The notes beneath the pieces are model-generated. The model made no database searches, had not been told where the DNA came from, and saw only the letters and a program-made list of their open reading frames with translations. Shown here piece by piece: positions 42,006-48,404 of a stretch of 64,000 nt of DNA. Position 1 is the first letter of the stretch. Each line of letters begins with the position of its first letter. Origin of the DNA: Rhodospirillaceae bacterium. Lineage in GTDB: Bacteria; Pseudomonadota; Alphaproteobacteria; Bin65. Location of the stretch: positions 186,001 to 250,000 of the forward strand of contig JAPPLJ010000030.1 of NCBI GenBank assembly GCA_028819475.1. The letters are read 5' to 3'. The position numbers and the translations under genes are program-made.

Positions 42006-43850
42006 TCAGTCCACGATGTGGTAGACCGGCGCCTTCTCCATCTCCCACGAGTCGCTGTCGCGGTCGTAGCGGGAGAGCGTGAAGCAGTGCCAGTTGTCAT
42101 CGTCCAGCTTGGGATGGTCGGCACGGTAATAATAGCCCGGCCAGCGGGTCTCCTCGCGGAACATCGTGTGCTGGGTCACGCTCTCCGAGGCCAGCACCCG
42201 GTGGTGCAGTTCCCAGGCGCGCTGAAGCTGGTGCAGATCTTCGGCGCCGATATGGTTCATATCTTCCTTCAGCATCCCGAGCAGTTCGATGCCGCGGTCG
42301 AGCAGCGGCGTGTTGGTCGTATAGTGGGCGCTGATGCCGCCGACATACTCGTCCATGATCTTTTCGAGGCGCTGGAGCCCGTGGATCGGCAGCAGATAGC
42401 TCGGCGAGACCGTGCCGGCGACGATCTCGTTCCGGCCGACCGAATAGTTCTCCATCGGCTGGAACACCGTCTTTTCGAGCGCCCGGTATTCCTTCTCGTC
42501 GACCTGCGGCCCGTCGCTGCCCAGATCGTTGACGTAGTTGACGGCCGCCTTGCCCGCGATCCGCCCCTCGGTGAAAGAGCCTGACGAGAATTTGTGGGCC
42601 GTGCCGCCGATCGTGTCGCCGGCGCCGAACAGCCCGTCGACCGTCATCATCCGGTTGTAGCCCCACTGGTACTCGTCGGGCGCATAGTCCTCCGGCCCGC
42701 TCGCCCACGCGCCGGAGCAGGTCGCGTGGGAGCCCATGACATAGGGCTCGGACGTCGTCAGTTCCGGGTTGATGTGCTTCGGGTCGATATTCTGCGACGC
42801 CCAGACGACGGCCTGACCGATCGTCATGCCGAGGAAGTTCTCCCAGCCCACCGTCTCCTTGTGCGGGTCCTGGAAGGCCTCCTTGGTCACCATGCGGATC
42901 GGGCCGCGGCCGGCCTTGACCTCTTCGAGCAGGGCGTGGTTGCGCAGGCAGGTCGGTACCGGGTGCCGATCGACATAGTCGCCGACCAGTTGCTTGGTGT
43001 GCTCGTACCAAGTCGATTCGTATTCCTCGCCGTAGGCATTCTGTGTGTAGGTCTTGAGGTGCAGAAAATAGGCGCCGACCGGGCCGTAGCCGTCCTTGAA
43101 GCGAGTCAGGACAATGCGGTTCTCCATCTGGGTCATCTTGGCGCCGACCAGGATCGGCAGGGCGTAGGCCGATGCGCTGCTCCACGGCGCGTACCAGGTC
43201 CGCCCCATGCCTTCGCCGACCGCGCGCGGCTTGAAGATATGCGAGGCGCCGCCCGCAGACACGATCACCGCCTTGGCCTTGAAGACGTAGAAATCGCCGG
43301 TGCGTACGTTGAAGCCGACGGCGCCGGCGACGCGGTTCGGATTCGTCTTGTCGGTCAGGAGGTGGGTCACCATGATCCGGTTGTAGACCTCGGTCGCGGC
43401 CTTGCGGGCCGCCTCCGCGACGATCGGCTTGTAGCTCTCGCCGTGGATCATGATCTGCCACTTGCCTTCCCGCAGATAGCGCCCGGTTTCCGGGTCTTTC
43501 ATGATCGGGAGGCCCCATTCCTCGAACTTGTGCACCGTGCCGTCGACATGGCGGGCGATGTCGTAGCCGAGGTCCTCGCGCACCAGGCCCATCAGGTCGT
43601 TGCGGGCGTAGCGGACATGGTCCTCCGGCTGGTTCTCGTCCCACTGCATGCCCATGTAGCAGTTGATGGCGTAGAGACCCTGGGCGACCGCGCCGCTGCG
43701 TTCGATGTTGGCCTTCTCGACGCACACGACCTTCAGGTCGCGGCCCCAGTAGCGGGACTCGTAGACGGCGCCGCAGCCGGCCATGCCGCCGCCGATGACG
43801 AGAACGTCGGAATCGACGAAAACGGTCTTTCTGCGCGAGAACAGGCCCAC
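42006..43850 (-). CDS. aprA: Adenylylsulfate (APS) reductase alpha subunit
   Basis: A 614-residue cytoplasmic flavoprotein catalytic subunit of dissimilatory APS reductase, which in sulfur oxidisers oxidises sulfite plus AMP to APS. The N-terminal FAD motif is VLVIGGGMAGCGAVYE (residues 15-30), and ATCSGAWASGPEDYAPDEYQW, FGAGDTIGGTAHKFSSGSFTEGRIAGK and YYRADHP are characteristic AprA segments. The GTG at 43850 overlaps the aprB TAG by one base. The aprM-B-A order and the divergent sat favour the sulfur-oxidising lineage with the AprM anchor; no dsr or qmo genes are in the window. Confidence 0.96.
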   Translation of the reverse strand: MGLFSRRKTVFVDSDVLVIGGGMAGCGAVYESRYWGRDLKVVCVEKANIERSGAVAQGLYAINCYMGMQWDENQPEDHVRYARNDLMGLVREDLGYDIARHVDGTVHKFEEWGLPIMKDPETGRYLREGKWQIMIHGESYKPIVAEAARKAATEVYNRIMVTHLLTDKTNPNRVAGAVGFNVRTGDFYVFKAKAVIVSAGGASHIFKPRAVGEGMGRTWYAPWSSASAYALPILVGAKMTQMENRIVLTRFKDGYGPVGAYFLHLKTYTQNAYGEEYESTWYEHTKQLVGDYVDRHPVPTCLRNHALLEEVKAGRGPIRMVTKEAFQDPHKETVGWENFLGMTIGQAVVWASQNIDPKHINPELTTSEPYVMGSHATCSGAWASGPEDYAPDEYQWGYNRMMTVDGLFGAGDTIGGTAHKFSSGSFTEGRIAGKAAVNYVNDLGSDGPQVDEKEYRALEKTVFQPMENYSVGRNEIVAGTVSPSYLLPIHGLQRLEKIMDEYVGGISAHYTTNTPLLDRGIELLGMLKEDMNHIGAEDLHQLQRAWELHHRVLASESVTQHTMFREETRWPGYYYRADHPKLDDDNWHCFTLSRYDRDSDSWEMEKAPVYHIVD

Positions 43851-44314
43851 TAGACCACTCCCTCTTTGAGCTGCTCCGGCGTGAGCGCCGGCAGGCCGCC
43901 CTCGATGTTCAGGGCGTCCGGCTCATGCGCCAACTCCTGGTTCCTGTATTCGTCGGCGCCGGGCGCGGCGTAGTCGGAGGGCGACTGGATCGTGCCCCAG
44001 TCCGTCGTCCGGATCGGCGAGACGAAATTCTTCTCGTTGCCGTCGCGGAACTTGATCTTCCACGAGATCGTGCCCTTTTCCTCCTCGCGCAGGGCCCGGA
44101 CGCTGTGGCCGAGCGGGGCGAAATCGGCGTAGCCGCGGCAGTCGATTGCATTCTGCGGGCAAGCCTTCACGCAGGAATAGCATTCCCAGCACATGTTGGG
44201 CTCGATGTTGTAGGCCCGTCGATAGGTCGTATCGATGTGCATGATATCGGACGGGCAGATATCGACGCAGTGTCCGCAGCCGTCGCAACTTGTCATGTAG
44301 ACGAATGTCGGCAT
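43850..44314 (-). CDS. aprB: Adenylylsulfate reductase beta (iron-sulfur) subunit
   Basis: A 154-residue ferredoxin-like partner of AprA. Two [4Fe-4S] sites are visible: Cys10, 13, 16, 20 (CDGCGHCVDIC) and Cys42, 45, 48, 52 (CWECYSCVKAC). A C-terminal extension of about 90 residues embraces the alpha subunit, as in known AprB. It passes electrons from sulfite oxidation at AprA towards the membrane partner AprM. It lies between aprM (44 nt upstream) and aprA. Confidence 0.97.
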   Translation of the reverse strand: MPTFVYMTSCDGCGHCVDICPSDIMHIDTTYRRAYNIEPNMCWECYSCVKACPQNAIDCRGYADFAPLGHSVRALREEEKGTISWKIKFRDGNEKNFVSPIRTTDWGTIQSPSDYAAPGADEYRNQELAHEPDALNIEGGLPALTPEQLKEGVV

Positions 44315-44358: not shown

Positions 44359-45144
44359 TCAGTAGTGGTTGGGCTGTCGGCGGGCGCTGCCGAATGTCAC
44401 CGGCCGGTCGGCCGGCGCCGGCAGGTTGCGGCGGGTCCCGTTCGCTTCGGCCACGCGCTTCTGGAGCGCCGCCGCCGGCTTGAAGAACATGTGCGAGAAT
44501 TTGGACCAGGGAACCGATCCGAACAGCACGGTCGTCGCGATCAGGTACAGCGCCAGGAACAGCCAGGTCCACCAGGTGCCGCCCGGCTGAACGAAGGACC
44601 AGATCAGGCCGAAGGTCGTGCTGGCGAGCAGCGAAAGGATGAACAGGTCGGCCCGGATAATCCGGAACGGCGAATGGCCTTCTGCGGAAACGTCCGCCCG
44701 GATGAAGAACCAGAACCAGTAGCCGCCCACGCAGACCATCAGGGCGCCGACCGTCCAGATAACCGGCAGGGCCGCGGGCGTCGACGCGGACGTGTCCGCA
44801 TAGCCGAACACCATGATCGCCGTCGTGACCGCGTAGGCCAGGAAGCCATACATCGTGAGAAGGTGCGCCACCCGGCGCCGTGCGTTGCAGAACTCGGACG
44901 AGGTCAGCACTTCCGAAGCCAGGGTCTGGGCGGCGAGCGAGACCACCTCCCCGCTGCCGACGGTATCGGCGCCCTTGCTCTGGGCGTTACGCCAGTCACG
45001 GAAGAAATATGTGGCGCTCTGCTTGTGCAGAATATCGAACAGCGTGCCGGCCGCGACAAACAGGATCATCACGATCACATAGATCTGCATGACAACCGGC
45101 GACACGTCCGCCGACAGGGCGGCGAAAGGATTTTCGATGGCCAT
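44359..45144 (-). CDS. aprM: AprM-type membrane subunit associated with APS reductase
   Basis: A 261-residue integral membrane protein upstream of aprB. It has about six hydrophobic segments (for example VVMQIYVIVMILFVAAGTLFDIL, HLLTMYGFLAYAVTTAIMVFG, WTVGALMVCVGGYWFWFFI, WWTWLFLALYLIATTVLFG). Histidines within or near these segments could bind haem or quinone, so the protein likely anchors AprAB and delivers electrons to the quinone pool. AprM is the membrane partner known for the sulfur oxidisers lacking qmoABC. The ATG at 45144 is used; TTG 45147 is one codon earlier. First gene of the aprM-B-A operon. Confidence 0.85.
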   Translation of the reverse strand: MAIENPFAALSADVSPVVMQIYVIVMILFVAAGTLFDILHKQSATYFFRDWRNAQSKGADTVGSGEVVSLAAQTLASEVLTSSEFCNARRRVAHLLTMYGFLAYAVTTAIMVFGYADTSASTPAALPVIWTVGALMVCVGGYWFWFFIRADVSAEGHSPFRIIRADLFILSLLASTTFGLIWSFVQPGGTWWTWLFLALYLIATTVLFGSVPWSKFSHMFFKPAAALQKRVAEANGTRRNLPAPADRPVTFGSARRQPNHY

Positions 45145-45431
45145 CAAGTCCCCCCTGAACTGCCGGGCCGTTGGAAACGATTACATTCCGGTATCTTCCG
45201 AGGCAAGGATGCGGCATCATATTCAAACATTTGAATTTAACAAGCGCGATTCGGGAGGCGCGCAGGCTGCCGCAACCAAGCGTCGTAAAGCCCACAAAGC
45301 GGTTGAAGGCAACGCTTTTTCCGTGAAATGAGAAAACGCCGCAAGACCCCGTCCGACAACCGCCCTGAAGCGTCGTGCAGCAGACATTCCGTCCCGCCCG
45401 CCGGCGCCGCCGGTTCTCTGGAGACAACCGC
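45145..45431. promoter_or_regulatory. aprM/sat divergent promoter region
   Basis: 287 bases between the apr operon and sat. Most notable is the palindrome at 45223-45238, listed separately. The AT-rich block 45215-45242 stands out from its GC-rich surroundings and likely contains the promoter(s). The 3' part (from 45300) is GC-rich leader with GGAGA before sat. No gene is seen. Confidence 0.6.
45223..45238. promoter_or_regulatory. ATTC-N8-GAAT palindrome, candidate sulfide-responsive ArsR site
   Basis: A perfect inverted repeat ATTCAAA-ca-TTTGAAT, 79 nt upstream of aprM and 194 nt upstream of sat. The spacing ATTC-N8-GAAT matches, from memory, the sites of sulfide/persulfide-sensing ArsR repressors of the SqrR/BigR group in alphaproteobacteria. 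No such repressor gene lies in the window, so the regulator would be encoded elsewhere. Confidence 0.55.
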
Positions 45432-46625
45432 ATGTCGAACCTGATCGCCCCGCACGGCGCCCCGCGCCTCACCCCCCTGTATGTCGCGGATGCGGATGAA
45501 CGCGCGCGGATTGCGCAAGAGGCGGAATCGTTGCCCTCGATCACGGTGTCGTCGGCGGCGGCCAGCAACGCGGTGATGCTGGGCGGCGGCTATTTCACCC
45601 CGCTCGCCGGCTTTATGGATAAGGCCGACGCGCTCTCGGTCGGGCGTGCGATGCGCACCGCCGGCGGCCTGTTCTGGCCGACGCCGGTTCTCAACCTGGT
45701 TCATGACGCCAGCGCCGTGGAAGCCGGCGCGCGGATTGCGCTCAGGGATCCCAACGTCGAGGGCGCGCCGGTGCTCGCCATCCAGGAGGTGACGGGCGTC
45801 GAGACCTTTTCCGGGGCGGAGTTCGACGGGCTGACGGCGCAGGTCTACGGCACGACCGACCCGGACCATCCCGGCGTCGCCGATTTCCGGGCGCAGGGCC
45901 GCGTGGCGCTTTCCGGACCGGTCCGGGTGCTGAATTTCAGCTACTTCGAGACGGACTTTGCCGAAACGTTTCGCACCGCCGTGTCCATCCGGAACGAAAT
46001 TTCGCAGCGCGGCTGGCGCCGGGTCGTCGCCTTTCAAACCCGCAATCCCATGCACCGCGCCCATGAGGAACTGTGCCGGATCGCGATGGAGCGGCTCCAT
46101 GCCGACGGCGTCGTCATCCACATGCTGCTCGGCAAGCTGAAGCCGGGCGACATTCCGGCGCCGGTGCGCGACGCGACCATCCGCAAGATGGTCGATCTGT
46201 ATTTCCCGCCGAACACGGCGATGATTACAGGCTACGGCTTCGACATGCTCTATGCCGGCCCGCGCGAAGCGGTGCTCCACGCCATCTTCCGGCAGAACAT
46301 GGGCGCGTCGCACTTTATCGTCGGCCGCGACCATGCCGGAGTCGGAGACTATTACGAGCCCTTCGAGGCCCAGGAAATCTTCGACGATATCCCCGACGGC
46401 GCGTTGCAGATCGAGTTGTTCAAGGCCGACCACACCGCCTGGTCGAAGAAGCTGAACAAGGTGGTGATGATGCGCGAGGCGCCGGGCCATACGAAAGAGG
46501 ATTTCATTCTGTTGTCCGGCACGGCGGTGCGCGAGATGCTGGGCAAGGGCATCGCCCCGCCGCCGGAATTCTCCCGGCCGGAAGTCGCGCAAATCCTGAT
46601 CGATTACTATCGCGGGCGCAGCTGA
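45432..46625 (+). CDS. sat: Dissimilatory sulfate adenylyltransferase (ATP sulfurylase)
   Basis: A 397-residue single-polypeptide ATP sulfurylase. In sulfur oxidisers it runs APS + PPi to ATP + sulfate. It carries QTRNP (202-206) and the HxxH motif (HRAH, 208-211), then GRDHAGVGDYY and GTAVREMLGKG. It lacks the C-terminal kinase-like extension of fungal enzymes, and it is not the CysDN type. Start ATG 45432 behind GGAGA. Divergent from aprM-B-A, with which it forms the sulfite-to-sulfate route, and convergent to znuB. Confidence 0.97.
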   Translation: MSNLIAPHGAPRLTPLYVADADERARIAQEAESLPSITVSSAAASNAVMLGGGYFTPLAGFMDKADALSVGRAMRTAGGLFWPTPVLNLVHDASAVEAGARIALRDPNVEGAPVLAIQEVTGVETFSGAEFDGLTAQVYGTTDPDHPGVADFRAQGRVALSGPVRVLNFSYFETDFAETFRTAVSIRNEISQRGWRRVVAFQTRNPMHRAHEELCRIAMERLHADGVVIHMLLGKLKPGDIPAPVRDATIRKMVDLYFPPNTAMITGYGFDMLYAGPREAVLHAIFRQNMGASHFIVGRDHAGVGDYYEPFEAQEIFDDIPDGALQIELFKADHTAWSKKLNKVVMMREAPGHTKEDFILLSGTAVREMLGKGIAPPPEFSRPEVAQILIDYYRGRS

Positions 46626-46651: not shown

Positions 46652-47458
46652 TCAATCGGCGCGGCCGGCGCGGCCGCGGACGGGGATGAGCAGGCTCACG
46701 GCGAAAATCGCGCTGGCGACGAGCACGATGGCCGGCCCGCCGGGTATATCCCATTCCAGCGCACCGAACAGGCCCGCAACGATAGAGACGATCCCGATCA
46801 CCGTGGACGCCACGGCCATCTGCTCGGGCGTCGTCGCCATGCGCCTGGCGGCGGCGGCCGGAACGATCACGAGCGCCACCACGAGCAGCATGCCGACGAT
46901 TTTCATGCCCACGGCGATCACCGCTGCGAGCAGGAACAGCAGCAGAAGGCGGACCCTTTCTACCGGCACGCCTTCCACGGCCGCGAGGTCCCGGTTCACG
47001 GTGATGGAAAGGAGGTTGCGCCATTGCCAGGCCAGGGCGGCGATGACGATGACGGCGGTCGCGAAGATCAGCCACAGGTCGAAGACGCCGACGGCGAGAA
47101 TATCGCCGAACAGGTAGCCGATCAGATCGACCCGCAACCGTTCCATGAAGGCGACGACGACGAGCCCCCCGGCAAACACGGCATGGGCCAGCACGCCGAG
47201 CAGGGCGTCGACGGAAATATATTGCTGGCGCTCGAGCAGAAGCAGGCAGAGCGCCAGCATCAGGCAAATCGCGAAGACGGCAAGGATCGGTGCGATGTCG
47301 AGCAGGAAACCGAGCGCGACCCCCAGCAGCACGGCATGGGCGAGCGCGGTGCCGAAATAGGCCAGGTTCCGCCAGACCACGAAGCAGCCGACCGGGCCGG
47401 CGGCGATCGCCGCCCCGATGCCGCCGGCGAGGGCGCGCAGGAAAAAATCCTCTAGCAC
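46652..47458 (-). CDS. znuB: High-affinity zinc ABC transporter permease
   Basis: A 268-residue membrane permease of the metal ABC-3 family with about eight hydrophobic segments ([45 protein letters not shown] at the start). [30 protein letters not shown] and [17 protein letters not shown] are conserved in ZnuB/AdcB. The GTG start at 47458 overlaps the znuC stop by 7 nt. It lies with znuC only; the substrate-binding ZnuA and the regulator Zur are not in the window. Manganese transport is the alternative, but the His-rich C-terminus of the ATPase favours zinc. Confidence 0.9.
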
Positions 47459-48270
47459 GGGCGCCGGTCGGTGCGGTCGGAATCCTGCGCTTCGCCGGAA
47501 CCCGCAGTCACCGGTTCGCCGAGGGCGTCGTGGCGGTGATCGTGCATATGCTGGTAGACGGCGAGCGTGTCGGCCAGTTGCGAACCGAACAGCGCAATGA
47601 ATTCCGGGTGGCGAACGACGGACTGGGGTTGGCCGCTGCAACACACATGCCGGTTGAGGCATACGACGGTATCCGTGTCCGACATGACAAGATGCAGATC
47701 GTGAGAGACCAGAATCACCGCGCACCCGTAACGGTCCCGGATGGTCGCGATCAGCTTGTAAAGGTCGCTCTGGCTGGTGACGTCGACACCCGCCAACGGC
47801 TCGTCGAGCACCAGCAGGCCGGGTTCGCGCAGCAGCGCGCGCGCAAGCAACACGCGTTGAAGCTCTCCACCCGAAATTTCGGCCAGTGGGAAATCGACGA
47901 TCGCATCGGCGCCGACCTCGTCGAGCGCAGCCGCGAGTCTGTCGGGCGTCGCCGGCCCGCCGAGTGTCAGGAAACGCCGCACCGTCATCGGCAGGATCTG
48001 ATCGCGGTGCAGGTGCTGGGGCGAATAGCCGATTCGCAGGCCGGGCGCGCGCCTGACTTCTCCGGAATCCGGCTTTACGATGCCCAGAATGACGCGGACC
48101 AGGGTCGATTTGCCCGCACCGTTGAGCCCGACGAGAGTCATGATCTCTCCGGGGCGCACGGCGACGTCGACATTGTCGAGAACGTTCAGCCGGCCGAAAC
48201 GGACGCAGACCCCCCGGGCCTCGACCAGAGGCGCGGCCTGTGCAGGATCGCTCGAAGACGGCCGGGGCAT
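47452..48270 (-). CDS. znuC: Zinc ABC transporter ATP-binding protein
   Basis: A 272-residue ABC ATPase from ATG 48270 (an upstream in-frame ATG at 48348 is possible). Walker A is [13 protein letters not shown], the Q-loop is in SPQHLHRD, the signature [16 protein letters not shown], and Walker [13 protein letters not shown]; the H-loop is LVSHDLHLV. The C-terminal tail is His-rich ([11 protein letters not shown]), as in ZnuC proteins that handle zinc. It is the first gene of the pair, with 134 nt to the next gene upstream. Confidence 0.92.
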
Positions 48271-48404
48271 GGCGACTCGATACAGGCTCGCAACAGCCGA
48301 GGCAAGGACCGGCGGGGCGGAACCGGGCCGCCGCGAACCCGCCGGCATCCCGAACGGTCCGGCCTTGCCGCCGGCGGCGCCGGGAACCCGCGGGCAATGA
48401 CAGG

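Follow-up and report, generated by a model that had tools for sequence, protein, structure and literature searches.

The closest described systems are ArsR-type regulators with a pair of sensor cysteines. In Hyphomicrobium denitrificans, the two-cysteine repressor SoxR targets sox, shdr and soxT (PMC10451225, PMC12423496), with repression reported for the sox genes, the shdr genes and soxT1A (PMC10451225), and its described signal is sulfane sulfur (PMC10451225, PMC12423496). H. denitrificans reportedly has no efficient enzyme for oxidising sulfite, which accumulates and is excreted (PMC10451225, PMC12423496). SqrR of Rhodobacter capsulatus, which is associated with sulfide-dependent photosynthesis, has a published site of the form ATTC-N8-GAAT (PMC9774250), and, in E. 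coli, YgaV binds over its own promoter (PMC9774250). The initial annotation of the locus analysed here knew of no described apr or sat case, and in our search of the open-licence literature no report of ArsR-type control of apr came up either.

We analysed a 64,000-nucleotide stretch of DNA (the window) from an uncultured, apparently sponge-associated bacterium. The APS reductase genes aprA (alpha subunit, 42006-43850; above the TIGR02061 cut-off) and aprB (beta subunit, 43850-44314; above the TIGR02060 cut-off) lie on the minus strand behind aprM (44359-45144, minus strand), the first gene behind the promoter. AprM is the putative membrane protein of the APS reductase operon, a name suggested by gene order (beside aprBA in related loci) and by weak similarity to QmoC. 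The divergent neighbour is sat (sulfate adenylyltransferase, 45432-46625, plus strand; above the TIGR00339 cut-off), which is followed in the opposite orientation by a metal-uptake-type ABC transporter (46652-48348; ABC-3 permease PF00950 and ATPase). The 284-bp gap between aprM and sat holds a perfect 7-2-7 inverted repeat, ATTCAAA-CA-TTTGAAT (ATTCAAACATTTGAAT), at 45221-45236. The initial annotation had recognised this perfect repeat but placed it two bases too far to the right, at 45223-45238. Its description of an AT-rich island was borne out, the palindrome lying inside a 20-bp stretch of 85% AT (surrounding DNA, 20-60% AT), and the ATTC-N8-GAAT form that it named is exact at this site. 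Only one promoter-like sequence was found within 45100-45460, TTGTTA-16-TATGAT on the minus strand (0.1 expected), and it is directed into aprMBA. Its -35 hexamer (TTGTTA, 45238-45243, minus strand) and its -10 hexamer (TATGAT, 45216-45221, minus strand), 16 nt apart, are both invariant in six species. The spacer (45222-45237) is occupied by the palindrome, which touches the -10 hexamer and has base 45221 in common with it.

The results further revealed that sat is probably not a direct target of the site. The palindrome lies about 195 bp from the sat start, on its upstream side. No second site was detected in the apr/sat gap or from 45237 to the sat start, and no promoter-like match reads into sat within the scanned 45100-45460. 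With neither a second site nor such a match, sat was rejected as a target. The site appears to be placed for aprMBA only, given its location in the spacer of the aprM-ward promoter, its distance of about 195 bp from sat and the lack of a second copy in the gap. The possible sulfide or persulfide control first proposed for both apr and sat is supported for apr by comparison with other genomes, but not for sat.

A bare match to ATTC-N8-GAAT was rejected as evidence, since it is at chance level: 0.87 matches are expected per window, 62 of 100 shuffles contained at least one match, and the whole 4.48-Mb genome contains 32. The window also holds eight perfect 7-2-7 palindromes, two of them AT-rich. 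The palindrome gains its significance from its position in a promoter spacer, its conservation across species and its recurrence at other sulfur-oxidation promoters.

When public genomes were scanned for AprM relatives, five species of the same group were recovered, all metagenome-assembled genomes titled Rhodospirillaceae or Alphaproteobacteria, one of them named after Spongia. The source genome (G000) was compared with five further species of the same genus (G001-G005) and with a seventh species of that genus (G006). The AprM-scan loci L020-L024 are the same species as G001-G005; they were counted once and rejected as additional evidence. The six species with sites belong to one genus and hence represent few independent events. 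When the apr promoters of the five species from the AprM scan were aligned with the window, the block CTTGTTAAAT-N-C-N-AA-N-GTTTGAATATGATGCCGC was nearly invariant, while the flanks diverged. The apr site reads ATTCAAATGTTTGAAT in G000 and G001, ATTCGAAAGTTTGAAT in G002, G004 and G005, and ATACGAAAGTTTGAAT in G003, so that the perfection of the palindrome itself varies; 13 of the 16 columns of this candidate operator are invariant across the six species.

Hexamers and site together form a 28-bp promoter/operator module (TTGTTAAATTCAAATGTTTGAATATGAT, 45216-45243, minus strand) that is common to the soxX promoter. Searching G000 with TTGTTAAATTNNAANNTTTGAATATGAT at up to three mismatches returned exactly two matches, the apr promoter and a position 124 bp before soxX, where the identities of soxX, soxY and soxA were confirmed with family models. 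The same two places, before aprM and before soxX, and no others were matched in G001-G005, so that each of the six genomes has exactly two copies. The module had no match in G006 or in four family members, and a reversed control pattern of it gave zero matches.

A looser search with the 16-mer added three more sites, each kept in all six species. The promoter of an ArsR gene (P0001, described below) carries a ATTCGAAAATTTGAAC-type site (ATTCGAAAATTTGAAC itself in G003 and G004), which overlaps the -35 hexamer TTGAAC, with a conserved TATGTT 16 nt further. At the soxT unit, ATTCAAATTATTGAAT lies between TTGCCA and TACAAT, in a promoter leading into a histone-deacetylase-like gene and then a YeeE/SoxT-type sulfur transporter, with tusA divergent. 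The third site, ATTCAAAAGTTGCTAT, lies over the -35 of a promoter that leads into an sHdr-LbpA operon, made up of a DsrE-like gene, HdrC-like genes and a gene for a GcvH-like lipoate-binding protein. None of the other 16-mer matches in G000 is common to all six species. ATTGAAAATTTTGAAT (L121:9652-9667; G000 C5:85651), located in AT-rich DNA close to the end of a contig, was otherwise found only in the closest species, G001, and is probably a chance match. We also observed that, in each of the six species, the histone-deacetylase-like gene (PF00850; L102:7391-8560) separates the site from the SoxT-type transporter gene.

In the five promoters taken together, 71 of the 80 site columns (89%) were invariant, compared to 114 of 451 flank columns (25%) taken 12-60 bases away in an ungapped comparison that somewhat understates flank conservation. 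The ATTC-N8-GAAT form is exact at apr in five of the six species and at soxT, and departs by one to a few letters at soxX, arsR and shdr; little beyond one arm is retained at the shdr site. The left arm deviates to ATTA at the soxX site and to ATAC at the G003 apr site; a strict ATTC-N8-GAAT rule therefore fails at probable members. All candidate operators overlap the hexamers or the spacer of their predicted target promoters. Part of the conservation at apr and sox could come from promoter function.

The seventh species serves as a natural knock-out, or control species, for this comparison. Its genome is 96% complete and contains soxA and fccB, but aprA, P0001 (at the threshold used) and all five sites were not found, and the 11-kb stretch around its sox genes gave no site match even at one mismatch. 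Regulator and sites therefore co-occur in G000-G005 and are both missing in G006, which keeps sox without P0001 and without sites; the sox site was thus lost where the regulator is missing. In this genome (L188, C201:6000-17000), the sox and fcc genes are joined in one cluster.

The initial annotation had proposed an operator of the SqrR/BigR group and a search of the genome for a homologue with two conserved cysteines. We found four ArsR-domain matches in the genome, one of which, P0001, is of the sulfur-sensing kind. Its gene lies at 70.1-70.5 kb of contig C1, a contig separate from that of apr, and its ArsR winged-helix domain scores above the cut-offs of PF01022 and NF033788. Ranked against solved structures, P0001 matched 6o8k and 6o8l-6o8o first, followed by BigR, HlyU and YgaV; 6o8k and 6o8l-6o8o, deposited merely as ArsR family, we take to be SqrR. 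Identity is 41% to SqrR and 39% to BigR, and both sensor cysteines align with the SqrR and BigR pairs; a third cysteine is present. P0001 thus supplies the homologue that was sought, and a genome without such an ArsR gene, which would have spoken against the idea, is not what we found. A site of this kind also lies in P0001's own promoter, which further strengthens the operator idea. The SqrR side of the proposed grouping agrees with the best structure match, whereas P0001 falls short of BigR in the narrow sense, scoring 87 bits against the 155-bit cut-off of the BigR equivalog model (NCBIfam NF040642), and by its predicted targets it is SoxR-like.

Downstream of P0001 lie genes for a c-type cytochrome and a flavocytochrome c sulfide dehydrogenase (fccB), and in G002 and G003 the P0001 gene is about 3.4 kb from the sox module, so that it is linked to sulfur-oxidation genes. 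P0001 is 93-100% identical across G000-G005. In G000 and G001, the ArsR gene is separated from the fcc genes by a stretch that encodes a 168-aa protein without a Pfam match (L101:1506-2012). Judged by their neighbours, the other three ArsR-type genes appear to encode a regulator of the arsenic type, an SdpR-type protein and an ArsR domain that is part of a longer fusion protein. The nearest plasmid-borne relatives of P0001 adjoin sulfur-detoxification genes, and none of the three examined was a sox-linked SoxR. The label SoxR/SqrR-type for P0001 is taken from targets, neighbours and cysteines, and its predicted target set (sox, shdr, soxT) resembles that of SoxR rather than that of BigR.

We assign a probability of about 0.8 to the reading that the palindrome is the operator of the SoxR/SqrR-type ArsR repressor P0001, with a regulon of aprMBA, the soxX operon, the soxT unit, dsrE-sHdr-lbpA and its own gene. 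This reading builds on the site, its promoter overlap, its recurrence, its conservation, its co-occurrence with P0001 and the family of that regulator, all of which are observed. The module might instead be a strong sigma-70 promoter shared by sulfur genes, in which the palindrome is incidental to an AT-rich spacer and is not bound by a repressor. The apr and sox hexamers and spacer are indeed conserved as one block, and the variable left arm (ATTC, ATTA, ATAC) fits this explanation. However, spacer sequence is normally unconstrained, yet it is identical here in two unrelated operons; the same 16-mer is placed otherwise elsewhere, over the -35 in shdr and arsR and in a spacer with other hexamers in soxT; and sox has lost the site in the single species without the ArsR gene. 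We therefore regard a promoter without a repressor as very improbable.

It is just as improbable that the site belongs to a co-occurring protein other than P0001, either another ArsR or an unrelated factor. All six species carry the site in the promoter of the P0001 gene, the form of the site equals the published SqrR form (PMC9774250), and the three further ArsR-type genes, whose presence together with the predicted status of P0001 binding gives this explanation its footing, look arsenic-type, SdpR-type and fused by their neighbours. A marginally better, still slim chance attaches to P0001 binding the site as an activator, or sensing oxidants or metals in place of sulfane sulfur, given that HlyU, a named activator, is among its solved relatives and that it carries a third cysteine. 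The sites, however, overlap core promoter elements, as would suit repression, all predicted targets are sulfur oxidation genes, and P0001 retains the SqrR and BigR sensor cysteines.

For P0001 as a repressor, DNA binding, repression and signal are modelled on SqrR, YgaV and SoxR. When oxidisable sulfur is absent, a reduced P0001 dimer would sit in the spacer of the aprMBA promoter, with the -35 and -10 hexamers on either side, and would block RNA polymerase. It would likewise occupy the spacer at the sox promoter and lie over the -35 at shdr and arsR, excluding RNA polymerase there. Thiosulfate or sulfide would give rise to cytoplasmic sulfane sulfur, which would form a sulfur bridge across the two conserved cysteines; the bridged dimer would leave the DNA and allow aprMBA transcription. 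The same repressor is predicted to act on the soxX operon, the soxT unit, dsrE-sHdr-lbpA and its own gene, so that sulfite oxidation would be induced together with the sulfite-producing steps. Based on these comparisons, a single sensor probably switches on the pathway from thiosulfate to sulfate. We consider it likely, with somewhat less confidence than for the operator itself, that an ArsR repressor sensing sulfane sulfur directly controls aprMBA (dissimilatory APS reductase) as part of a regulon that also includes sox, soxT and sHdr, and that one signal induces both the removal of toxic sulfite and the steps producing it.

Regulators of this type have been described before; apr as a target and the regulon reconstruction appear to be new, as judged from the open-licence literature searched. 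Compared to SoxR, a two-cysteine repressor of sox, shdr and soxT as predicted here for P0001, the difference lies in apr, which is unmentioned in PMC10451225 and PMC12423496 and is a predicted target here; in addition, H. denitrificans has a SoxR/sHdrR pair, whereas one such regulator was found here. SqrR shares with P0001 the structure match, the aligned cysteines and the form of the site, but the predicted targets here are sox, shdr, soxT and apr, the sites tolerate changes in one arm, and the third cysteine sets P0001 apart. BigR (Xylella) and YgaV share its ArsR branch and cysteine pair, and YgaV also parallels it in binding over its own promoter, where P0001 has a candidate site; P0001 differs from both in falling below the BigR cut-off and in having sox/fcc neighbours, not a detoxification operon.

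Outside the genus, the site was absent from all 75 more distant aprM upstream regions, in which the best matches were at or little better than the shuffled level, and no ArsR gene stood beside apr among 80 apr loci in other lineages. In Woeseiaceae-type gammaproteobacteria (L064, L087, L088, L094, L096 and L099), a similar element, the 16-mer ATTAGAAAAATCGAAT, is conserved in the sat-aprM interval, 55-95 bases before aprM (with variants in L096 and L099), directly behind a TTGACA-N17-TATAAA-like promoter. These genomes carry SqrR-like ArsR genes, and no close match to ATTAGAAAAATCGAAT was found elsewhere in them at sulfur genes or arsR genes; ATTAGAAAAATCGAAT is possibly an operator of its own kind. 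Since apr promoters outside the genus have no site, apr appears to have joined a SoxR-type regulon in this lineage specifically.

SoxR-type repression of sox and sHdr genes has been described in an organism without efficient sulfite oxidation, and placing apr under the same signal would close the sulfite-removal gap seen in H. denitrificans. The lineage is known here from metagenome bins alone, and the operator set, the named regulator gene and the control species open APS pathway regulation in sulfur oxidisers to direct testing. If apr belongs to the regulon, one sulfane-sulfur sensor would span the route from thiosulfate to sulfate, tying sulfite removal to sulfite production.
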